A DNA stretch of 39,364 nucleotides from Longimicrobiales bacterium (lineage in GTDB: Bacteria; Gemmatimonadota; Gemmatimonadetes; Longimicrobiales; Gaopeijiaceae): contig JANQDZ010000100.1 of the NCBI GenBank assembly GCA_028278645.1, forward strand, positions 1 through 39,364. The letters run 5' to 3'. The notes under the pieces were generated by a model. It saw only the letters and a list, made by a program, of their open reading frames with translations, did no database searches and was not told the DNA's origin. Below are positions 19,280-31,498 of this stretch, in pieces; position 1 is the first letter of the stretch, and each line of letters opens with the position of its first letter. The position numbers were made by a program, and so were the translations under genes.

Positions 19280-20065
19280 TCACCCGTGGACGAAATCCCC
19301 GATCCTCTTCACCCGGTGCATTTCCTGGGGATCCAGGGGCCCTCGGGAAAGGGCTTCGAATCCGTCAAGCATCTGCTCCTCCGTCCGGGGACCGGCAATA
19401 CAAAGGTCCACGGCGGGATGGGAGAGAGCGAAACGGTAACAGTCTGCCGCTGTCAGGGGGGGTTCGCCCGGTGGCATCTTTTGGGGTTTGAGGAGCTTAC
19501 CCCACCGGGTCGCCGTGTAAGTGGTGATCCCCGGTCGCCCCGCGGGGAGGTCCTGAAAGACCTCCCCCTCTGCCCCCCGGTGGGCCGCACTGTAGCGCAC
19601 CTGGAGAACGTCGAACGGGCCGTCTTCCTCCCGAGCCATCTCCCCATGGAACTTCCGATTATGCCCCGTAAGGCCCAGGAACCTCACCTTCCCGTGTTCC
19701 TTGAGCTCCCTCGCCCGATCCAGCAACCGGCTGCGTGGCATCTTATTGAACCACCCCAGGAACAGGACGTCGAGGTACTCTGTGTCGAGCTCCCTCAAAG
19801 CCTTCTCGACCGAACGACTCAAGTATCCAGGGCTCCGAGTATAGGACTGAGCCCCGATCACAAGGTCCTCTCGCCGGCTTCGCCCGAGGTTCCTCAATGC
19901 TGATTTCATGCCCGGTTTCCGGGACACCCAATAGAAGTAGTTGATTCCGTACTCCATAAAGGCCCGTTCCACGGCCTGAGCAGGGATCCCATACCCGCCC
20001 GCCAGCCCGATCCGGCTTACGGGGACGCCGGTCCTACCCAAGACTCTGTGCTCTTGAAAGGTCAC
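19280..20065 (-). CDS. Aldo/keto reductase-fold protein lacking the catalytic tetrad
   Basis: 261-aa protein with clear AKR (beta/alpha)8 sequence: 'RVLGRTGVPVSRIGLAGG' at the N-terminus, 'KALRELDTEYLDVLFLGW' and 'VRFLGLTGHNR'. All four catalytic positions differ from active AKRs. The Asp of 'NxFDTA' is Tyr ('GINYFYW'), the Tyr of 'xxYG' is Lys, the Lys of 'IATK' is Gln ('IGAQ'), and the His of 'LLHW' is Gly ('FLGW'). It is also short for the family (about 310-330 aa). I recall a wider subfamily with the same 'NYFYW' segment, so this is probably a conserved non-canonical lineage rather than decay. Its start overlaps the stop of the flavin oxidase gene, implying a shared task. It may not be a reductase at all. 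Confidence 0.87.
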   Translation of the reverse strand: MTFQEHRVLGRTGVPVSRIGLAGGYGIPAQAVERAFMEYGINYFYWVSRKPGMKSALRNLGRSRREDLVIGAQSYTRSPGYLSRSVEKALRELDTEYLDVLFLGWFNKMPRSRLLDRARELKEHGKVRFLGLTGHNRKFHGEMAREEDGPFDVLQVRYSAAHRGAEGEVFQDLPAGRPGITTYTATRWGKLLKPQKMPPGEPPLTAADCYRFALSHPAVDLCIAGPRTEEQMLDGFEALSRGPLDPQEMHRVKRIGDFVHG

Positions 20066-21498
20066 GGCCTGCCCTTTGTGGAAGGCGGAACGTTCTGATT
20101 CAACCGAAAAAAGTTGTGGGGGTCGTACTCGGCTTTTAACTGCGACAACCGTTCATATGCTTCACCATAAGCCGATGGGATGCGCTCCTTCTCATCCCCC
20201 GTCATGAAGTTCACGTACACGCCCCCCGAGGCGAAAGGCTTGGCCGCTTCGAAGAGATCCCGGGTCCAAGCGATGAGACGACCGTCGTCCTTCTCTTCAT
20301 GCCATCGCCCATGGACGTTCATAATGAACTGGGCGTCCCTCGGTTGATATGCGGTCGCGCCAGTCGGGACCCGACTGACCGCGCCACCTAACTGGGCGAA
20401 AAACACCTCGCAGGCTTGATTTGGCAAGCTGTGGACCAAGGGGAACACAGCGTCGAGGAGGCCATCGCTCAACTCATGGAAGGTGTGAGATTTCCAGTAA
20501 TTCCTTCGGCCAGCAAGGAGGAGGGGATCGAAGGCCATCTGGAAATCGGCGTATTTATGGGGTCCGATCACATCGGCGAGGGGCGTCCCGAAACCTCTCA
20601 ACGGCCTCAGGATCCTCTCACCCTCTCGTAGGTCACCCGCATAGAGACATGCGAGGATCAGGACTTTTGTACCGTGCGTTTCCGGAGGAAGAAACGGAAG
20701 GGGTGGAGCTTTCCTCATGACCGCCCAGACCGTGAGCTCTTCGGGTGCATGGTAGACAAAAGCCCGGTAGAAACGAAGGACGGCATCGGCATCGGAGAAC
20801 GGGTGGACGAGCAGACCAGAGAGAACGTCCGGTCCCACGGAGTGGAGCTGGAATTCGAACGAGGTCACGATTCCGAGGTTTCCTCCACCCCCACGGAGTC
20901 CCCAGAACAGATCCGCGTTTTCTTTCTCGCTGGCCCTGAGATAGTCGCCCCCCGCAGTCACGACGTCGGCTGAGAGCAAGTTGTCGATGGTCAATCCATA
21001 CTTCCGACTCAGCCATCCGAACCCCCCGCCTAGGGTCAGGCCGCTGATCCCCGTCGTGGAATTGACCCCTAATGGAGTCGCCAAGCCAAATACCTGCGTT
21101 TCCAAGTCGATCTCCCCCAGAGTGGCCCCGGGTTCCACCCTCGCCCGTTTCCGCCTCGGATCCACCCTGATGGAGTTCATCCTCCTGAGGGAGATCATCA
21201 ACCCTCCGTCGCAGGACGCATTTCCCGCGATGTGGTGGCCCGCTCCGAGTACCGACGCCAGAATTCCGTTCCGCCGGGCGAAGTTCACGGATCGAATCAC
21301 ATCGGCCGGGCCGGCGCACTCAACGATGAGGCCCGGCTTCCGTTCGATCATCCCGTTCCAGAGTTCCCTGGCTGCGTCATATCCAGGAGACTGCGGAGCA
21401 AACAGCTCGCCCCTGAGGCCGGCAGCGAAATCGTCGAGCTCAGCGTCCTGCAAGTTCCTGGTGGTGCCCTCCAAGGTGGTCACTGGAAAACGCGGCAT
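20062..21498 (-). CDS. FAD-linked oxidase with BBE domain (VAO/PCMH family)
   Basis: 478-aa flavin oxidase. I place the start at 21498 because GGAGG lies about 9 bases upstream and MPRFPVTTLEG fits the family; an in-frame start at 21531 would add 11 residues. The FAD_binding_4/PCMH domain occupies about 50-230. 'GAGHHIAGNASCDGGL' carries H88, the likely 8-alpha-histidyl FAD attachment, and 'GLTLGGGFGWLSRKYG' is the second FAD motif. The position that carries the second, cysteinyl flavin bond in bicovalent BBE enzymes is not Cys here ('NSTTGISG'). The C-terminal BBE motif 'YDPHNFFRLNQN' is intact. It has no signal peptide. Family substrates range from sugars to alkaloid-like alcohols and amines. 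Coupled translation with the AKR-like protein suggests they act on the same metabolite. Confidence 0.93.
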   Translation of the reverse strand: MPRFPVTTLEGTTRNLQDAELDDFAAGLRGELFAPQSPGYDAARELWNGMIERKPGLIVECAGPADVIRSVNFARRNGILASVLGAGHHIAGNASCDGGLMISLRRMNSIRVDPRRKRARVEPGATLGEIDLETQVFGLATPLGVNSTTGISGLTLGGGFGWLSRKYGLTIDNLLSADVVTAGGDYLRASEKENADLFWGLRGGGGNLGIVTSFEFQLHSVGPDVLSGLLVHPFSDADAVLRFYRAFVYHAPEELTVWAVMRKAPPLPFLPPETHGTKVLILACLYAGDLREGERILRPLRGFGTPLADVIGPHKYADFQMAFDPLLLAGRRNYWKSHTFHELSDGLLDAVFPLVHSLPNQACEVFFAQLGGAVSRVPTGATAYQPRDAQFIMNVHGRWHEEKDDGRLIAWTRDLFEAAKPFASGGVYVNFMTGDEKERIPSAYGEAYERLSQLKAEYDPHNFFRLNQNVPPSTKGRP

Positions 21499-21623
21499 AA
21501 CCCTCTCCTCCCGGACAGGTTCGGACAACAAGGGGTTTTGGCGGAAAGTTCAAGAATTGGAGAAATGGGAAAAAACGCAAGGAGTTTTTTCCCCGCCGCC
21601 CAATGCCAGACAGCTGGAAGGAG

Positions 21624-23161: not shown

Positions 23162-24154
23162 ATGCCCGGATCGACGGACTATATGAATTCCCCACGCCCC
23201 GTCCAGGCCCAGCTCTTCCTCGGCCTCCTGTACGGCTTCTTCCTTCCTCTCGCCTCCGGATGTGGAGGTTCCCCGTCGGACGGAGTGGACGTCGCTATGC
23301 TCCTCCCCGAGACCATCGGTGAATGGGTCAGGCAAACGGATCCCGTCACCTACGACCGCGAGACCATCTTCGACTACATCAACGGCGCCGGCGAAGTCTA
23401 CCGCTCCTACGCTTTTTCCCAGGTCCTGGTCGAACGGTATCAAACCCCCTCCGGCCTCGGTGTTTCGGTGGAAGTCTTCGACATGGGAACCACTGAGGAT
23501 GCCTTCGGAGTGTTCAGCTACGCTCGGGAGGACGAGGAGTCAGGGATTGGAGCCGGGTTCGAACGGAAGGGGAGCGTCCTCTGCTTCTGGCAGGACCGGT
23601 ACTATGTCTGCGTGGCCGCCGAACAGCGGGGGGACAATGTGGAAGACGACCTCCGGGAGGTGGCCGGTGGGGTCTCGGCTGAATTGCCCCCCGGCGGCGA
23701 ACGACCGGCCCTCATGGCCGCCTTGCCTGAAGAGAACCAGGTGCCCTTCAGCGACAGGTATTTTCATACACACCAGTCTTTGAACTACCACAACTACCTG
23801 GCTCGAGAGAACGTGCTTCAGCTTTCTCCTGAGACGGCTGTGGCGTTGGCCCGTTACCAACCGGGATCGACCTACCTCCTGATTGTCGAATACGAAGACG
23901 AACACGCGGCGACCACTGCTCTCACTTCTTTCGAAGCCCACCTGACCCAGATCGGGTTCGCGGTGACAAACGCCCCGGACGCTGGCGGAGGGGCTTCGTC
24001 CACCGACGGCGAATCCTGGACCTCCATCAGCCAACGGGGCCGGTTCCTGGTCGCGGCCCTGGAAGCTGATACCAAGGAAGCCGCTGATCTCATCCTAAAG
24101 GGAGCGGTGGCCCAGCTCGACCAGATCCCCGGCCCAGGGCAGCCGAAGCCCTGA
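23162..24154 (+). CDS. YING/DMGT-motif lipoprotein, DUF6599-like (copy 1)
   Basis: 330-aa predicted lipoprotein with signal peptide and lipobox ASGC (C34). An alternative start at 23183 would give a shorter signal peptide with the same lipobox. The shared core is 'IFDYINGAGEVYRSYAF' (about 69-85) followed by 'SVEVFDMGTTEDAFGVFSYA' (102-121). The same block recurs in the gene at 30650. I associate it with the uncharacterised DUF6599 family, but that name is from memory. The C-terminal half contains a second alpha/beta unit ('YLLIVEYEDEHAATTAL'). The gene lies 19 bp upstream of a DUF362 gene on the same strand. With a polyferredoxin and AKRs nearby, an accessory or electron-carrier-docking role at the outer face of the membrane is plausible but inferred. 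Confidence 0.88.
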   Translation: MPGSTDYMNSPRPVQAQLFLGLLYGFFLPLASGCGGSPSDGVDVAMLLPETIGEWVRQTDPVTYDRETIFDYINGAGEVYRSYAFSQVLVERYQTPSGLGVSVEVFDMGTTEDAFGVFSYAREDEESGIGAGFERKGSVLCFWQDRYYVCVAAEQRGDNVEDDLREVAGGVSAELPPGGERPALMAALPEENQVPFSDRYFHTHQSLNYHNYLARENVLQLSPETAVALARYQPGSTYLLIVEYEDEHAATTALTSFEAHLTQIGFAVTNAPDAGGGASSTDGESWTSISQRGRFLVAALEADTKEAADLILKGAVAQLDQIPGPGQPKP

Positions 24155-24173
24155 CCCAACGAAAGGAAATCTC

Positions 24174-25088
24174 ATGGACAAGGGACCTTCAGACCTCACG
24201 AGGCGCGATTTCGTGAAAGGCGTGGGGTTGGCTGCTGTGGGGGGAGCGATGGGGCTACCCGAGCCGGCCTCCGGATCCGAGGGCAAGGCTGAATCTGGAG
24301 TACCTCAGCCGACGTCGAGAGTGGTGCTGATTCGAGATGAGAACGTCGTCTCGACAGCCGGAACCATAGACCCGGACGGAATCCAGGGCATGCTGGATCA
24401 GGCCATGACGACCCTCTTCGGATTGGATTCTCCGGAAGAGTGCTGGAAGCACATCATCAAGCCCGAGGACGTGGTTGGCATCAAAACCAACATCTGGCGT
24501 TTCCTCCCCACGCCGTCGGAGGTGGAGGACGCCATCAAACGGGGCGTGATGGGGGCTGGTGTGCCCGAGGAAAACATCGGGATGGGGGACCAGAACGTCC
24601 TCAGGCTGGAGATTTTCGAGCGCACGACGGCCCTCATCAACTCCAGGCCCATGCGCACCCACGCCTGGTCGGGCGTCGGTAGTCTGATCAAGAACTACAT
24701 CATGTTTGATCATCCACCCGACTACCACGATGACGCATGCGCCGACCTGGCGAAGCTGTGGGAACTTCCAATCGTCAAAGGGAAAACCAGGCTGAATGTC
24801 CTGGTGATGCTGACTCCGCAGTTCCACAACATCGGGCCCCACCACTTTGACCCGGAGTACACCTGGCCCTATAAGGGCCTGATCGTCAGCACTGACCCCG
24901 TTGCCGCCGACGCGGTGGGGCTGAAAATCATTCAGGCCAAACGGCGGGAGTCGTTCGGCGAGGACAGGCCTCTGCAACCCACCGCCCATCACATCCAGCT
25001 GGCCGAGACGGTCCACAACCTCGGGGTTGCCGACATGGACCGGATCGACCTGGTGCGCCTGGGCTGGCAGGGAGAGGAGCTGATTTAG
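24174..25088 (+). CDS. Tat-exported DUF362 family protein (copy 1)
   Basis: 304-aa DUF362 protein. The Tat signal has the motif TRRDFVK (9-15) before a hydrophobic stretch, so it should be exported folded. DUF362 features include 'PEDVVGIKTNIW' (the 'KPN'-type strand), 'GVPEENIGMGDQNV', 'NVLVMLTPQFHN' and 'IVSTDPVAADAVGLKII'. Most DUF362 proteins with ferredoxin domains carry Fe-S clusters, but this one has no Cys cluster, so it depends on other proteins for electron transfer. The biochemical role of DUF362 is not established. The gene follows the copy 1 lipoprotein by 19 bp and converges with the polyferredoxin gene after only 13 bp. It is divergent in sequence from copy 2 at 26780. Confidence 0.9.
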   Translation: MDKGPSDLTRRDFVKGVGLAAVGGAMGLPEPASGSEGKAESGVPQPTSRVVLIRDENVVSTAGTIDPDGIQGMLDQAMTTLFGLDSPEECWKHIIKPEDVVGIKTNIWRFLPTPSEVEDAIKRGVMGAGVPEENIGMGDQNVLRLEIFERTTALINSRPMRTHAWSGVGSLIKNYIMFDHPPDYHDDACADLAKLWELPIVKGKTRLNVLVMLTPQFHNIGPHHFDPEYTWPYKGLIVSTDPVAADAVGLKIIQAKRRESFGEDRPLQPTAHHIQLAETVHNLGVADMDRIDLVRLGWQGEELI

Positions 25089-25101
25089 CCCCGTTCGCCG
25101 C

Positions 25102-26763
25102 TCAGGTGGCCCTTTCCAACAGGAGCTGGTTGGTCTCGGACCGGGACTCACCCACAGATGTGACGTAGACCGCCTTCTTGTCGAAGACCGGGCAAGCATA
25201 CTCACAAGCACCACACCCGGTGCACAGGGCGGGATCTACCCGTGGGCGTTGCACCCTCACCTCGTTTCCATCGATGTCGATGGCGGTCTCTTCTCGGAGG
25301 TAGATGGCCTTCGGGCTGACCGGGCACCACTCCTCGCAGACAATACAGGGGGTCGCCATGGCCCACGGCAGGCACCGGCCCCGGTCGAAGAAAGCGGTGC
25401 CCATCCGCATTGGCGGGGTGTCATCATCCCCCACCTTCTCCTCGAAAGACAGCTCTTGAATGGCTCCCGTGGGGCAGACCTGCCCACAGAGTGTGCACGT
25501 TGGCTCGCAGTATCCGATTTTGGGGATCATGTAAGGGGTCCATAAACCCTCGAACCCTGATTCCAGGATGGTCGGGTGAAGGGCGTTGTTCGGACAGACG
25601 CGCATGCACTGCCCGCATCGGATACATCGTTCCAGGAAGTTGTTCTCCGGCAGGGAACCCGGGGGCCGGATCAGGAAAGCAGACCGTTTGACCTCGAAGG
25701 CATCCCCGGAACGGAACAACGGCACCGCCACCACGCCTGCGGCCAGGGAGCCCACGACCTTCCTTCGGGTGACATCCACCTCCGCTGTCCCGGCTGGGTT
25801 CTCACGGGTGTCTTCCTGCTGCGGGAAGAACCGGAAATGGAGGGCCCCATCCGGGCAAGACGCCTCACAATTCAGACACAGATGGCACTCGGATTGTCTC
25901 CACTTACTTCCGACAATGGGATTGTCGCCCCCCTGACAGTTCAGGAGGCATTTGTTGCACCCGCCGCAGGCCTCTTCGTCCTTCTGGAGGCCGAAGATGG
26001 CGAAGCGGGAGAAGACGCCTAGCATTGCGCCAAGGGGGCAGATGCCTCGGCACCAAAACCGGGTAAAAACCCGGTTCAGCAGCAGAATCGACGCGAAGAG
26101 GACCCCGATCAGGAGAACCCCGTGGAAGTGGGCCTGCCGGTAGGGCAGCACGGCCACATCGAGAACGTCGTAGATGCCCCCCGCCACAGCGGCAATCGGC
26201 GTGATCCCGGTATTCCGGGCAGCGGCCGTCATGGCCAGGGCGCCGGTGTGGAGCGTGGGAAGGACGGCCGTTCCGATAGACCGGGCCAGCAGGGGCAATG
26301 GATCGAGGAGCCCCGCTTGGAGGCTCCCCAGCAGCGCGGCGCCCGTGACGAAGAAGAAGATGTAGTACTTGATGCGTTGGTACGGCTTATACCGGTTCGA
26401 GTCGAGAAGACGTTTCCCCTTCCGCTCCTTCCGCTCCGACTTGAAGGCGGACATCCAGTGGTTCAGGGTCCCAAAAGGACAAATCCATCCGCAAAAAAAC
26501 CGCCCCATGAAGATCGTCGGGACCAGGATGACCAGAGACCAGAGCAGGCCCTTGTACAGAGACCCACTGGCGAGGAGGGTCATGAGAGCTGTGAGAGGAT
26601 CGAACTCTAGAGCGATGGAGACGGGATATGGGAGCTGGATCTCCGAAACCTCAGCTGGATTAAAATCCACATCGAAAGTGGTCTTGAGAACCAGCCAGAT
26701 GAAGATGAAGAAAAACGTGACCTGAGAGGCTCGTCTGAGGTTCCGTGCGGTACGGATGGTCAT
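25102..26763 (-). CDS. NapH-like membrane polyferredoxin fused to a four-cluster ferredoxin
   Basis: 553 aa from the start at 26763, chosen because AGGTGG lies 7 bases upstream and MTIRTARNLRRASQ leads straight into the first TM. The open frame continues upstream to 26895 only inside the DUF362 gene. The N-terminal half has about five TM helices with the two NapH/NosR/CcoG Cys motifs FCGWICPFG (90-98) and WCRGICPLG (237-245), then two cluster motifs (C266-C276, C293-C303). A twin-arginine motif, TRRKVVGSLAAGVVAVPLF (332-350), starts a second, NapG-like half with four cluster motifs (C380-C390, C419-C430, C464-C480, C514-C524). The protein should pass electrons from quinol or cytoplasmic donors to exported enzymes. 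The neighbouring Tat-exported AKRs and DUF362 proteins are the likely clients. Confidence 0.92.
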   Translation of the reverse strand: MTIRTARNLRRASQVTFFFIFIWLVLKTTFDVDFNPAEVSEIQLPYPVSIALEFDPLTALMTLLASGSLYKGLLWSLVILVPTIFMGRFFCGWICPFGTLNHWMSAFKSERKERKGKRLLDSNRYKPYQRIKYYIFFFVTGAALLGSLQAGLLDPLPLLARSIGTAVLPTLHTGALAMTAAARNTGITPIAAVAGGIYDVLDVAVLPYRQAHFHGVLLIGVLFASILLLNRVFTRFWCRGICPLGAMLGVFSRFAIFGLQKDEEACGGCNKCLLNCQGGDNPIVGSKWRQSECHLCLNCEASCPDGALHFRFFPQQEDTRENPAGTAEVDVTRRKVVGSLAAGVVAVPLFRSGDAFEVKRSAFLIRPPGSLPENNFLERCIRCGQCMRVCPNNALHPTILESGFEGLWTPYMIPKIGYCEPTCTLCGQVCPTGAIQELSFEEKVGDDDTPPMRMGTAFFDRGRCLPWAMATPCIVCEEWCPVSPKAIYLREETAIDIDGNEVRVQRPRVDPALCTGCGACEYACPVFDKKAVYVTSVGESRSETNQLLLERAT

Positions 26764-26770
26764 GGAAGGT

Positions 26771-26776
26771 CCACCT
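26771..26776 (-). promoter_or_regulatory. Ribosome binding site fixing the polyferredoxin start
   Basis: On the minus strand AGGTGG stands 7 bases before the ATG at 26763. It supports this start over the longer open frame that overlaps the upstream DUF362 gene. Confidence 0.75.
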
Positions 26777-26779
26777 GCA

Positions 26780-27742
26780 TCAGATGATCTCCTTGTAGCC
26801 GGCAGCCTGATAGTCGAGGGTGCCAACCCCGGCCCGGTCCGCCAGTACGATGTGGCCGACTCGATCCGGGTCGAGGCCGAGGAACTCGGCACCACGGGCG
26901 TCCGCCGCTACCTGGTCGGTCGAGCAAAGCACCGTGTTCTCGATCCTGACGTCGTCGAGAGATCCACCCTGCGGGCCGCTTCTGAAAAGGACCCTGGTGC
27001 CGTCGACGACGGTGAGGGTGGGCCGGGTGAAGGCCGCGAGATCCACGATGGACTGCTCGATCTCCTGGTGGAGCCGGTTTCGGCGTCCTCCCAGGATCCC
27101 GTAGAGGTTCTTCATGCCGATGGTGCACAGGGTGAGGTTGTGGTGTTTGATCACAGGCATGTTGATGAACCGATCGGCCTCAACAAAATGTCGAAGAACC
27201 TCCCATTCCCGCAGGACGGACCCACCCAGGTCGATCTCCCCATAGTCCTCTTCCGCCGGAAGCTTCACCTCGGCCCCGGCGCTCTCCGCCGCCTCCCTCA
27301 CTCCCGACCGTAGGAAGCTCCGCCTGGGATCGTTGCACGATACGTCCGACACGGTTACCTGGGCTGCGCCGGCACCAAAACAAAGCCGGACCATCTCGCT
27401 CACCAATGCCGGATTTGTATTGGCTCCCTGAGCAGGAGACCGATCCCATCCGACGTTGGGTTTCACGACCACCCGCTCTCCCGTCTTCACAAACCGCCCG
27501 ATTCCACCGATCCCTTCCAGAGCGGCGTTCAAGGCCGCCGCCGGATCTTCATTCCTGGCGGAAGTGAGGATCGGGAAGTTCGAATCCGGTGGAACCTCAA
27601 AGCTCGCCGTTTTGGAAAGCACGGTTCGGCGTGCGGTCGGTTCCCGGTTATGGAAAGTGAGCCCCGTGGTCCCCGAAACTGCGGCCAGCGCCACGGCTGG
27701 CCCCGTCTTCTTCAGAAAATCCCTACGTTCCATCCTTTCCAA
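26780..27742 (-). CDS. Tat-exported DUF362 family protein (copy 2)
   Basis: 320-aa DUF362 protein of the common type. The Tat motif RRDFLKK (6-12) starts the signal, and the mature region begins near residue 30. Family landmarks are 'VVVKPNVGWD' (91-100), 'GAAQVTVSDVSCND' (126-138), 'MPVIKHHNLTLCTIGMKNLYGI' in part (195-216), 'LTVVDGTRVL' (243-252) and 'DQVAADARGAEFLG'. It lacks ferredoxin-type Cys clusters. It is first in a two-gene minus-strand unit, with the polyferredoxin start 16 bp beyond its stop, which argues that the two work together. It diverges from the Tat-exported AKR gene across 111 bp. The family's reaction is unknown, and a role as redox or metal-binding partner of the polyferredoxin is inference. 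Confidence 0.92.
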   Translation of the reverse strand: MERMERRDFLKKTGPAVALAAVSGTTGLTFHNREPTARRTVLSKTASFEVPPDSNFPILTSARNEDPAAALNAALEGIGGIGRFVKTGERVVVKPNVGWDRSPAQGANTNPALVSEMVRLCFGAGAAQVTVSDVSCNDPRRSFLRSGVREAAESAGAEVKLPAEEDYGEIDLGGSVLREWEVLRHFVEADRFINMPVIKHHNLTLCTIGMKNLYGILGGRRNRLHQEIEQSIVDLAAFTRPTLTVVDGTRVLFRSGPQGGSLDDVRIENTVLCSTDQVAADARGAEFLGLDPDRVGHIVLADRAGVGTLDYQAAGYKEII

Positions 27743-27853
27743 TGCCCTTTCCGTGCCTAGATTGCGGCACTCGCCCAGTATATGGGTGGGTCAAGTGTGC
27801 CAGCAATCACACTTCAAACTCGTAGGAATCTTTGCTTCTGCCTTGGAGGTGGG
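27743..27853. promoter_or_regulatory. Divergent promoter region inside the redox locus
   Basis: This 111-bp gap between the DUF362/polyferredoxin unit (minus) and the AKR genes (plus) must hold promoters for both. A TATATG lies near 27780, but no well-spaced -35 box goes with it. GGAGG at 27845-27849 sets the AKR start at 27854. Confidence 0.5.
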
Positions 27854-29185
27854 ATGACGGACCAACGAGAGGTGAGCCGCCGAGGGTTTTTGAAGAAGAC
27901 CGGCATTGCTGCCATGGGAGGCGCGGTCGTCTCCGAAAGAGGCATTCAGGTGGATCCAGGTGGCCCGAAAACCCAGGAACTGAGGATCCAAGCGCACCGA
28001 ACGCTGGGCCGGACGGGCTTCGAGGTTTCGGACATCGGCTTCGGGGCCGGATTCCTGACCAACGCCAATGTCTTGGCAGTGGGCCTGGACCTGGGGATCA
28101 ACTACATCGACACCGCCGAGCACTACATGAACGGCCAGTCGGAGCGGGCGGTTGGGGAAGTGCTCAGGGGCAGAGATCGAAGCTCGATTTTTATCACTAC
28201 TAAGCTCAACCTCTCTTTCGGGGGTGGGAGCACAAAGGAGGATCTCAAGCGGCGTTTTTCCGCTTGCCTCGAGCGCATGCAGACGGACTACGCCGACTGC
28301 CTGATGATCCACATGACCCCTCGGGTGGAAGAGGTGAAACACGAGCCTTACCACGAAGCCGTCCGAGAGCTCAAGGCAGAAGGTCGAGTACGGTTCTCAG
28401 GTCTCTCGAATCATGGCACGGAGCACTCGGTATACGGCCGCATCGAGAGCCCGATGGAAGACGTCCTCGGGGCCGCTGCCGAGGACGGGCGCTTCGATGT
28501 GGCCTTGTTCGTCTACAACTTCCTGCAGAAGGATCAGGGGGAACGCATCATCGATGCCTGTCAGGCAAAGGGCATGGGCGTGACGCTCATGAAGACCAAC
28601 CCCGTGGGAGTAGTTACCCGGGCCTCAAAGAATGCCGCAGCGGCCAGGGCCAGCGGCCGGATCTCAGAGGCGAGAGACCGACTGCTACGTGACTACGAAG
28701 CTTGGGCTGAAGCCGCTGAAGAGTTCAAAGCCCGGCACGGGGTCCGGTCCGCTACAGAGGTCCGAGACGCAGCAATCAAGTTCTGCCTGGATCACCAGGG
28801 CGTCCATTCGGTTTGCCCGACCATGAACACGTTCGACGAGCTCGAGGCGTTTGTAGCTCTCTCCGGACAAACCCTATCTTCCGAAGAATCCCCCCTGCTG
28901 GCCAGCTACCAGGACCTGTTGGGATCCTACTACTGCCGTCATGCGTGCGGCATTTGTGAAGCGGCGTGCCCGCTGAACGTGCCGGTCAACACCATTGCCC
29001 GGTACGGCCACTACTTCAACGTCCAGAGCAGGGAGAAGCAGGCCATCCAGAAGTACGCCAAGCTCCCGGGTCCCCGAGCGGCCCCCTGTGCCGACTGTGA
29101 AGGCCATTGTGAAGCCGCTTGCCCGTTCGGGGTGCGGGCACGCAGTCTACTGACCAGAGCGCACGAGAACCTCACCCTGGCATAA
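27854..29185 (+). CDS. Tat-exported aldo/keto reductase with C-terminal Fe-S motifs (copy 1)
   Basis: 443 aa from the ATG at 27854, chosen for GGAGG 4 bases upstream and for the Tat signal SRRGFLKK (8-15) that follows. The AKR barrel spans about 45-345. The tetrad is intact: D86 and Y91 in 'YIDTAEHY', K117 in 'ITTK' and H153 in 'MIHM'. The C-terminal domain (about 355-443) has two cysteine clusters, C361-x3-C365-x2-C368-x3-C372 and C412-x2-C415-x3-C419-x3-C423, separated by a helical segment, fitting two [4Fe-4S] clusters. It is probably an oxidoreductase working outside the membrane with electrons from the polyferredoxin. NAD(P)H is not normally available there, so a bound cofactor exported with the folded protein is likely. 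The paralogue follows 21 bp downstream. Confidence 0.93.
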   Translation: MTDQREVSRRGFLKKTGIAAMGGAVVSERGIQVDPGGPKTQELRIQAHRTLGRTGFEVSDIGFGAGFLTNANVLAVGLDLGINYIDTAEHYMNGQSERAVGEVLRGRDRSSIFITTKLNLSFGGGSTKEDLKRRFSACLERMQTDYADCLMIHMTPRVEEVKHEPYHEAVRELKAEGRVRFSGLSNHGTEHSVYGRIESPMEDVLGAAAEDGRFDVALFVYNFLQKDQGERIIDACQAKGMGVTLMKTNPVGVVTRASKNAAAARASGRISEARDRLLRDYEAWAEAAEEFKARHGVRSATEVRDAAIKFCLDHQGVHSVCPTMNTFDELEAFVALSGQTLSSEESPLLASYQDLLGSYYCRHACGICEAACPLNVPVNTIARYGHYFNVQSREKQAIQKYAKLPGPRAAPCADCEGHCEAACPFGVRARSLLTRAHENLTLA

Positions 29186-29206
29186 AAACCCGAACGGAGC
29201 CCTACC

Positions 29207-30601
29207 ATGGCCAAGGATCGGCGGTCACCCGACGGAAACGGCGAGATCTCGAGGAGGAATTTCGTAAGAGCGGGAGGCGCCGCCGCGGCGGGTAGCGCAA
29301 TCCTTGGCGGGGCGGCAGCACCCCTGGCCGGTAGCCCGCTTGCCCCGGAAGAGAGCCCGAGCCTATTCCCCTCCGTGCCGCGCCAGGAAGCCCGGATCCA
29401 AACGTACAGAACCCTGGGGCGCACCGGGTTCCAGGTGTCGGACGTGGGAATGGGGAGTGTCCCCCTCCGTGAGACCTCTGTGGTCCGGTATGCCTATGAC
29501 AAAGGCGTCAACTACTTCGACACAGCCGAGGGTTATGGCAACGGCGCTGCGGAGCGGGCCATCGGAGAAGCGCTCCAGCACATGGAGCGGGACAAGGTCT
29601 TCATCGCAACCAAAGCTCGGGTGGGAGAGAGAGAGAACGCCGAGGCGGTAATCGAGAAAGTCCGGCAGTGCCTTCAACGCCTGAACACGGACTACATCGA
29701 CTCCTTCTCCATGCACGCGGTCCCCAGCGTGGAGGCCCTGGGCCACCCAGGGTACCACGCAGCCATGGACCAGTTGAAAGCAGAAGGAAGAGTCCGCTTC
29801 ACCGGGGTGTCCAACCACGGTCCCGGCATGGGCGAGATCCTGAGCGCCGCTGCGGAGGACGGCCGTTTCGACATGATGCTGCTGGTCTACAACTTCATGA
29901 ACCATGAAGAGAGTGATCAGATCATCGCGGCCTGCAAAGCCAACAACGTCGGCACCACCGCCATGAAAACTTCCCCCGGCTCCCTGGAGTACGAGCCGGT
30001 GGACCCCGCCAACCTCTCCGAAAGCCAACAGCGGTACATCGAGCGCTTGACGAGTCGTGGCCAATCCCGGGAACGGGCCCTGGAACGCCTCCAATCCCAG
30101 GCCAACAGACAGAAAGACACGTACGACAAGACCCGACCTTTTGCCGAACGGTACGGGATCCAGACTCAGGACCAGCTGCGCCTGGGAAGCATCCACTGGG
30201 TCCTTCAGAACCCCGACATGCATACGGCCTGCATCTCTTTCACCGAGTTCGAGTTGATAGACAAAGTAGTCCCCCTTTCCGGCACCAGGCTCACTTCACC
30301 TGAGGAGCATATGCTCCGGCAGATCAGCCTGGTGCTGGGCGACCAGTATTGCAGACACGGCTGTTCCGACTGCCTGGATTCATGCCCCTTCCAGGTCCCG
30401 GTAAGCACCGTCATGCGATACGCTTACTACTACCAGGGGCAAAAACGAGAGAAGTACGCTATGTCGAAGTACGCCGCTTTGAAGGAGAAGTCAGCAACAC
30501 TTTGTCTCGATTGCGTGGGAAAATGTGAAGGTGCCTGCACACACGGATTGGACATTCAGACCACCATGCATCAGGCCCATGCTCTTTTGACCCTGGCGTA
30601 A
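29207..30601 (+). CDS. Tat-exported aldo/keto reductase with C-terminal Fe-S motifs (copy 2)
   Basis: 464-aa paralogue of the preceding gene, with the same domain order. The Tat motif is SRRNFVR (15-21), followed by an Ala/Gly-rich hydrophobic region and a linker of about 20 residues. The AKR tetrad is D105 and Y110 ('YFDTAEGYG'), K136 ('IATK') and H170 ('SMHA'). An insertion relative to other AKRs (about 258-312) is polar and helical, with many Arg and Gln. The C-terminal clusters are C382-x3-C386-x2-C389-x3-C393 and C433-x2-C436-x3-C440-x3-C444. The last Cys is followed by Thr, not Pro. Both proteins end in 'LTLA'. The tandem genes suggest a heteromeric enzyme or two related substrates. Confidence 0.93.
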   Translation: MAKDRRSPDGNGEISRRNFVRAGGAAAAGSAILGGAAAPLAGSPLAPEESPSLFPSVPRQEARIQTYRTLGRTGFQVSDVGMGSVPLRETSVVRYAYDKGVNYFDTAEGYGNGAAERAIGEALQHMERDKVFIATKARVGERENAEAVIEKVRQCLQRLNTDYIDSFSMHAVPSVEALGHPGYHAAMDQLKAEGRVRFTGVSNHGPGMGEILSAAAEDGRFDMMLLVYNFMNHEESDQIIAACKANNVGTTAMKTSPGSLEYEPVDPANLSESQQRYIERLTSRGQSRERALERLQSQANRQKDTYDKTRPFAERYGIQTQDQLRLGSIHWVLQNPDMHTACISFTEFELIDKVVPLSGTRLTSPEEHMLRQISLVLGDQYCRHGCSDCLDSCPFQVPVSTVMRYAYYYQGQKREKYAMSKYAALKEKSATLCLDCVGKCEGACTHGLDIQTTMHQAHALLTLA

Positions 30602-30649
30602 ACGATCCAATCCCAAAACCCAAATCGAAATAAACCCGGAGGTGACGTC

Positions 30650-31498
30650 GTGGGATTAACAAATAGAAACACGGTCCTGGTCCCGGGCCTCTTCCTGGCC
30701 CTGCTTCCCCTGGTGGGATGCTCCAGCGGCGGGTCCGAGTTCCCGGAGGTAGAGGGATGGACCCAGCCAGGTGAGGTGCTCTTCTACGACGCTGACACCC
30801 TTTGGGAGTACATCAACGGTGCCGCCGAGCTGTTCGTTTCTTACGGAGTCCAGAGCTGCCGTACCACCGACCTCTCCTCGGGGGACCTGACCGTCACGGT
30901 GGACCTCTACGATATGGGGACCCCGCTAAACGCCTATGGAGTCTTCGAGCAGGAATCCTCAGGTGAAACGGTAGAAGTGGCGGGCGCGGTGGCTGCCCTG
31001 GTCTCCCCTCCTTACCAGGCACTCCTGCTGAAGGGAAGCACGTACGCCAAGGTGAACGTGTTCGAGGGAGAGCTCACGATGGAATCCGGGCAGGGGCTCC
31101 TCGAGGCGCTGGCGGCAGGCCTTCCTGGCCAAGCCACGCCGCCGGCCGAATTTGGCCTACTTCCTTCAGAGGGACTCATGGAAGGATCCCATTCCTTCCA
31201 GGCCGAGGCCTTTCTGGGTTTGACCGAGCTCACCGACTGCGTCTTCGCGAATTACTCCAGAGATGGCGAAGAAAGCTGGCAGGGATTCGTGGTGCTCCCC
31301 GACGCGGCTCAAGAGGTTTGGGATCACCTTTCGGGCGAATGGGAATCGGTGGAGAGCGGCGGGTCCGAGGTGAAGTTCAGGGAAGTCCCCTATCGGGGCC
31401 TCGTGGGGGTCACCTGGACCGATCGCGGATTGATGGGGGTGACCGGGGCCGCCGACCAAGAGGCTTTACTGGCCCGATTGGACGGGTTCGCTCACTGA
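30650..31498 (+). CDS. YING/DMGT-motif lipoprotein, DUF6599-like (copy 2)
   Basis: 282-aa lipoprotein beginning with GTG at 30650, with CGGAGG 7 bases upstream. The signal peptide ends at the lipobox LVGC (C24). The core repeats the copy 1 block: 'LWEYINGAAELFVSYGV' (51-67) and 'TVDLYDMGTPLNAYGVFEQE' (83-102). The C-terminal half has a shorter second unit and ends 'ALLARLDGFAH'. It lies 48 bp after the second AKR gene and closes the plus-strand run, with a terminator at 31524. Having one member of this family at each end of the locus suggests each serves a different exported enzyme. Function unknown. Confidence 0.88.
   Translation: MGLTNRNTVLVPGLFLALLPLVGCSSGGSEFPEVEGWTQPGEVLFYDADTLWEYINGAAELFVSYGVQSCRTTDLSSGDLTVTVDLYDMGTPLNAYGVFEQESSGETVEVAGAVAALVSPPYQALLLKGSTYAKVNVFEGELTMESGQGLLEALAAGLPGQATPPAEFGLLPSEGLMEGSHSFQAEAFLGLTELTDCVFANYSRDGEESWQGFVVLPDAAQEVWDHLSGEWESVESGGSEVKFREVPYRGLVGVTWTDRGLMGVTGAADQEALLARLDGFAH

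Follow-up and report, generated by a model that had tools for sequence, protein, structure and literature searches.

A recurring polyferredoxin gene cluster with Tat-exported DUF362 proteins of predicted LarA fold: a candidate extracytoplasmic system for the nickel-pincer nucleotide

What is the function of seven adjoining genes in a Longimicrobiales bacterium, in which three protein families each occur twice around one polyferredoxin? The genes lie in a window (the whole stretch of DNA that was analyzed) of 39,364 nucleotides, within which we found no tRNA genes and no Rfam elements. All seven were recovered as open reading frames where they had been predicted from the DNA letters, and the three family pairs were recognized by Pfam, with gene B just under its cut-off (Table 1). 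Tentatively, and with confidence a little short of even, we propose that the locus encodes an extracytoplasmic redox system that is linked to quinone. Its catalytic part would be the Tat-exported DUF362 protein of LarA fold, in which an invariant lysine would hold the nickel-pincer nucleotide (NPN).

Table 1. Genes of the locus, with positions in the window. The starts of genes C and E (near 26763 and 27854) are the most likely ones judging from homologues. The Pfam cut-off for PF20244 (DUF6599) is 27 bits.
Gene	Position	Strand	Predicted product	Profile match	ORF open from
A	23162..24154	+	DUF6599 lipoprotein, YINGAGE, lipobox ASGC	PF20244, 102 bits	
B	24174..25088	+	Divergent DUF362, LarA clan CL0471	TAT_signal, 25.8 bits	
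C	25102..26763	-	NapH-NapG fused polyferredoxin		26895
D	26780..27733	-	Tat-signal DUF362, LarA fold (model)	PF04015, 157 bits	
E	27854..29185	+	Tat-exported AKR, two C-terminal [4Fe-4S] motifs	PF00248, 112 bits	27782
F	29207..30601	+	Tat-exported AKR, two C-terminal [4Fe-4S] motifs	PF00248, 112 bits	
G	30650..31498	+	DUF6599 lipoprotein, YINGAAE, lipobox LVGC	PF20244, 102 bits	

The genes form three transcription units, A-B (+), D-C (-), and E-F-G (+), with C convergent with B (their ends are 14 bases apart) and E-F-G divergent from D. A recent segmental duplication was rejected as the origin of the pairs because A/G, E/F, and B/D are ancient, divergent paralogs: the match between A and G reached no more than about 42 bits, the identity of E with F is 43%, and B and D are members of different DUF362 subfamilies. 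Not far from the locus, the window has another redox pair (19280-21531), in which an AKR that lacks both the catalytic tetrad and a Tat signal overlaps the start of an FAD-linked oxidase-like gene.

The seven genes are a real cluster that recurs widely in bacteria. A sister genome from the same genus (G001) has all seven in identical order. Among 298 genomes of the phylum, DUF6599 was found in 11, the polyferredoxin in 10, and the F-type AKR in five, with both of the latter sets nested inside the first (Fisher p about 8e-18 for the polyferredoxin within DUF6599 genomes, uncorrected for phylogeny). From many phyla, 80 polyferredoxin loci were collected by an alignment scan for the polyferredoxin that used one genome per species and disregarded neighbours. 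In this set, in which contig ends cut many loci, DUF362 was found within 10 kb of the polyferredoxin at 66 of the 80 loci, DUF6599 at 38, and AKR at 17, and 14 of the 80 had all four families. These four-family loci came from the Calditrichota, Acidobacteriota, Thermodesulfobacteriota, Planctomycetota, Kiritimatiellota, and the host phylum, six phyla in total. The original prediction of a redox set that faces the envelope and surrounds a single polyferredoxin is supported, and the co-occurrence of its families across phyla is the test that the prediction had set for itself. The two parallel branches of that prediction did not stand as branches, and the arrangement is better described as separable modules, A-B and F-G, around a D-C core. 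Each module was found alone in other genomes (A with a B-type DUF362 at loci L044, L045, and L046; F-G at L036, L038, L040, and L043), and in host-class members A-B and D-C were accompanied by an F-type AKR.

Gene C is predicted to have a NapH-like membrane half, an internal twin-arginine motif (TRRKVVGSL), and a C-terminal NapG-like four-cluster half, which are the features of a dual Sec-Tat polyferredoxin; Pfam recognized Fer4 domains in it. This type has already been described, as the MLMS-1 polyferredoxin (PFD) has the same three parts and is a NapH-NapG fusion needing both Sec and Tat, according to passages of Tooke et al. (2017, PMC5449189) whose topic is membrane insertion and in which partner enzymes, DUF362, and AKRs do not appear. 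NapGH carries out quinol oxidation (PMC5449189). The expectation of a NapGH-like relay was correct, and the electron relay is of a known kind. The locus resembles the NapGH of periplasmic nitrate reductase in its quinone-periplasm electron path via NapH and NapG. It differs in that gene C is one fused chain that falls short of the NCBIfam equivalog cut-offs (NapG, 105 bits against 269; NapH, 70 bits against 234); no NapA or NapB was found near the locus and no molybdoenzyme among its annotated genes. Several polyferredoxin copies have in-frame stops (G203:C1:4162540-4164312, G066:C488:752-2443, and L037:10662-11480) and are possibly pseudogenes or the result of sequencing errors.

Of the DUF6599 lipoproteins, gene A groups with A-type copies that adjoin DUF362-B in other genomes, and in the host class the gene G type usually adjoins an F-type AKR. 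Contact between DUF6599 and the polyferredoxin is supported because the two genes are fused in three acidobacteria, in which both domains, above their Pfam cut-offs, lie in a single ORF. The DUF6599 fold, modelled for gene G with a pLDDT of 92, has two domains. Foldseek returned no match with E up to 1e-3 for this model, and although it weakly resembles sensor-type domains of extracytoplasmic proteins (PknH scored best, Z 10.8), the likeness is too slight for a function to be assigned from it.

The earlier reading of the sequence overlooked two aspects of DUF362, its LarA fold and its link to the genes of the nickel-pincer cofactor. The structure model of gene D (mean pLDDT 94.4) has the LarA fold over residues 60-289. 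When the model was compared with the PDB by Foldseek, each of the 19 chains that matched at E up to 1e-3 was a LarA-family NPN enzyme. A second aligner (VIA) gave Z values of 15.1 to 18.2 over 205-212 residues for LarA-family structures, with the next best at 5.4. The fold was visible by structure comparison only: a PDB sequence search with gene D gave no credible relative, and DUF2088/Lar_N (PF09861) had no match in gene D, for which DUF362 alone was reported. The hhalign profile match between D and LarA was weak (probability 0.7%, E 0.08) and had the same register as the motif considered below. The nearest named NCBIfam model to gene D, the cyanobacterial DUF362-like Npun_F2552, gave 71 bits, far under its cut-off of 500. 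DUF362 and DUF2088 both belong to Pfam clan CL0471, in which DUF362 has served as an outgroup only (PMC11770544).

In LarA, NPN is attached covalently to K184, and H200 is a ligand of the nickel (PMC7583248). The H-x9-K...H pattern of the NPN lysine and nickel histidine is kept in gene D, with the H-x7-G-x-K spacing found in 14 LarA sequences. The gaps of H174-K184-H200 are 10 and 16 in LarA and 10 and 14 in gene D, and a Gly stands two before the Lys in both. K208 and H222 of gene D (numbered from the Met at 27733) are the counterparts of K184 and H200 by sequence register, not by superposed coordinates, and were present in 61/61 D-type sequences; the alignment of these has 23 invariant columns, including K196, H198, K208, N209, R218, and H222. 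LarA D72 and R75 bind the ribose and phosphate, and the hhalign register is uncertain around K91-P-N and D97-R98 of gene D. LarA also has two catalytic His, H108 and H174, and racemizes by a two-base mechanism. The only invariant His in the 61 D-type sequences are H198 and H222, one of which is an active-site-like His of the H174 type, and no H108-type His is conserved in that alignment. For this reason DUF362-D should not racemize by the two-base LarA mechanism, and we have not filed gene D as a LarA racemase. Gene D thus shares fold and motif spacing with the LarA superfamily (DUF2088; PDB 5HUQ, 7S91, 9EIA, and 9Q3J) and, unlike it, is Tat-targeted, about 300 aa long, and situated beside an electron relay. 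Judged by profile searches, gene B is a true, divergent DUF362: its PF04015 match of 23.1 bits is just short of the Pfam cut-off of 24, and it scored 124 bits with the iterated DUF362 model and 24.2 bits in the whole-genome search. It keeps H-x9-K-N and a downstream His, and intact B-type sequences likewise have both H-x9-K-N and a later His.

According to published surveys, larBEC occurs without larA in about 15% of genomes, whose NPN-using proteins are still to be identified (PMC11796402). At nine acidobacterial loci, larE-larC-larB was found directly upstream of polyferredoxin-DUF6599-DUF362-DUF362 on one strand, a full linkage that comes from one acidobacterial clade. Two Glassbacteria-type loci from a second phylum (L031 and L113) have larE after DUF362-polyferredoxin, and the lar members tested passed their NCBIfam equivalog cut-offs. 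The host itself has a larE-larB-larC operon on contig C39, with all three above cut-off, no match to LarA (Lar_N) in its genome, and exactly two DUF362 genes, both in the locus. Flanking this operon (L164:7110-12498) are genes for a Haem_bd protein, a Tat-AKR that lacks Fe-S motifs, and a divergent His-rich membrane protein that matched neither Pfam nor NCBIfam.

Genome-wide counts of the pathway rest on LarC, which was present in 54 of the 62 genomes that carry genes of the locus. In the host family (116 genomes), LarC and DUF362 were each found in five genomes, three of them in common (Fisher p 4e-4, ignoring phylogeny). In the phylum sample, also with phylogeny ignored, LarC was found in 26/34 DUF362 genomes versus 120/264 others; it was missing from the remaining 8/34 and also from the control, Bacteroides ihuae. 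LarC presence alone proves little, because in the host class LarC commonly stands without LarA or DUF362. In most of these cases larC is a single gene among core genes unrelated to it, with neither larB nor larE beside it in that neighbourhood. The case for NPN in DUF362 therefore rests on fold, motif, and operon linkage. LarA was found in 7/74 host-class genomes searched, nearly all of them chosen as LarC-positive and DUF362-negative, which weakens an argument by elimination in which DUF362 is the client wherever LarC is present and LarA is not. Since most of these genomes lacked LarA, an orphan LarC needs no DUF362 client. Examples of the lone larC in its core neighbourhood, mostly without LarA or DUF362, are L156, L158, and L166-L168, where LarC may serve a different purpose or client.

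In the mechanism that we favour, LarB, LarE, and LarC would make NPN and install it in the cytoplasm, probably on the invariant lysine of DUF362, and loading in that compartment would explain why DUF362 is exported folded by Tat. Outside the cytoplasm, a hydride would be exchanged between NPN and a hydroxyl/carbonyl carbon, with NPN as acceptor (or donor). Electrons would then leave DUF362 by way of the four NapG-like clusters and reach the quinone pool via the membrane part, which is NapH-like. On textbook potentials only, substrate oxidation would be the favoured direction, because these are near -190 mV for a hydroxy-acid couple and near -75 mV for menaquinone; among the loci compared, no substrate gene was consistently linked. 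The Fe-S AKRs would be accessory or substrate-specific partners, and the DUF6599 lipoproteins dedicated partners anchored near the polyferredoxin, where they would tether or gate each enzyme.

It is possible, at a shade lower confidence than we gave the locus as a whole, that DUF362 is the missing class of non-LarA NPN proteins, with NPN as a tethered substitute for NAD(P)H outside the cytoplasm and hydride chemistry connected to quinone via the polyferredoxin. To our knowledge, NPN is known from isomerases only. If the proposal is true, this would be the first net redox role of NPN and its first place outside the cytoplasm, and partners would be assigned to the orphan NapH-NapG polyferredoxin of many phyla. 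With its testable lysine, DUF362 is a concrete candidate family for NPN use in larA-less genomes (PMC11796402). In the open-access literature, we found no paper on DUF6599, none that treats DUF362 other than as an outgroup to LarA or in a brief mention, and no description of the LarA-fold partner, the four-family cluster, or the lar link, of which an earlier one elsewhere is possible.

Somewhat unlikely, in our estimation, is that DUF362 has the LarA fold without NPN and acts as an Fe-S or protein-binding partner in a NapGH-like relay, the nearby lar genes serving a cytoplasmic LarA. Several acidobacteria that have larECB next to the operon do encode such a LarA elsewhere in the genome, and the DUF362-positive genomes without LarC and the weak profile similarity of DUF362 to LarA are consistent with this reading. 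Against it, however, are the invariance of the Lys and His in 61 divergent D-type sequences, the larE linkage in a second phylum, and the larEBC of the host without LarA.

The original prediction had the AKR barrels as terminal enzymes. Genes E and F are putative aldo-keto reductases by their AKR domain and Asp-Tyr-Lys-His tetrad, and each has eight C-terminal Cys, enough for two [4Fe-4S] clusters, in C-termini recognized as Fer4 by Pfam. We consider it improbable that such barrels bind NADP tightly before Tat export and are re-reduced via Fe-S by the polyferredoxin in two parallel branches. The tetrad and both cluster motifs are kept in E and F, and an in-operon AKR was found in Calditrichota, Acidobacteriota, desulfobacterial, Planctomycetota, and Kiritimatiellota loci. 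In contrast, most polyferredoxin-DUF362 loci have no AKR at all, and the AKRs of L074, L076, L088, L146, and L148 have lost tetrad residues with all eight Cys intact. Other linked AKRs (L134, L135, L143, and L145) have half of the Cys left. Because these losses differ, the Fe-S domain and the barrel chemistry are under different constraints. Based on the tetrad losses and the 17 loci with AKR versus 66 with DUF362, we regard a partner role for the AKR as likelier than that of defining enzyme. The host genome encodes one further F-type AKR, its third (L205:6034-7590, contig C22), with no DUF6599 adjoining it.

Very improbable is a hand-over, with DUF362 as a carrier or anchor of NPN and the exported Fe-S AKR using the nucleotide in place of NADP. 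In the host genus, a Tat-AKR adjoins the larEBC operon, and the periplasm has no free NADPH; however, we know of no AKR that binds NPN, and most loci have DUF362 without an AKR. An accidental neighbourhood, in favour of which we found nothing and to which we give next to no credence, is refuted by the recurrence in six phyla, the gene fusions, and the absence of DUF362 and DUF6599 from all 20 control regions, which were drawn from similar genomes.

Other genes also recur in these neighbourhoods. AmmeMemoRadiSam-system and spermidine-synthase-like genes were observed near the polyferredoxin and B-type DUF362 in another set of loci (L070, L075, L081, L091, L093, L098, and L104), most of them acidobacterial. 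At the loci of family f11 (L029-L033), TPR/GWxTD-domain proteins, not AKRs, lie between the polyferredoxin and the second DUF6599.
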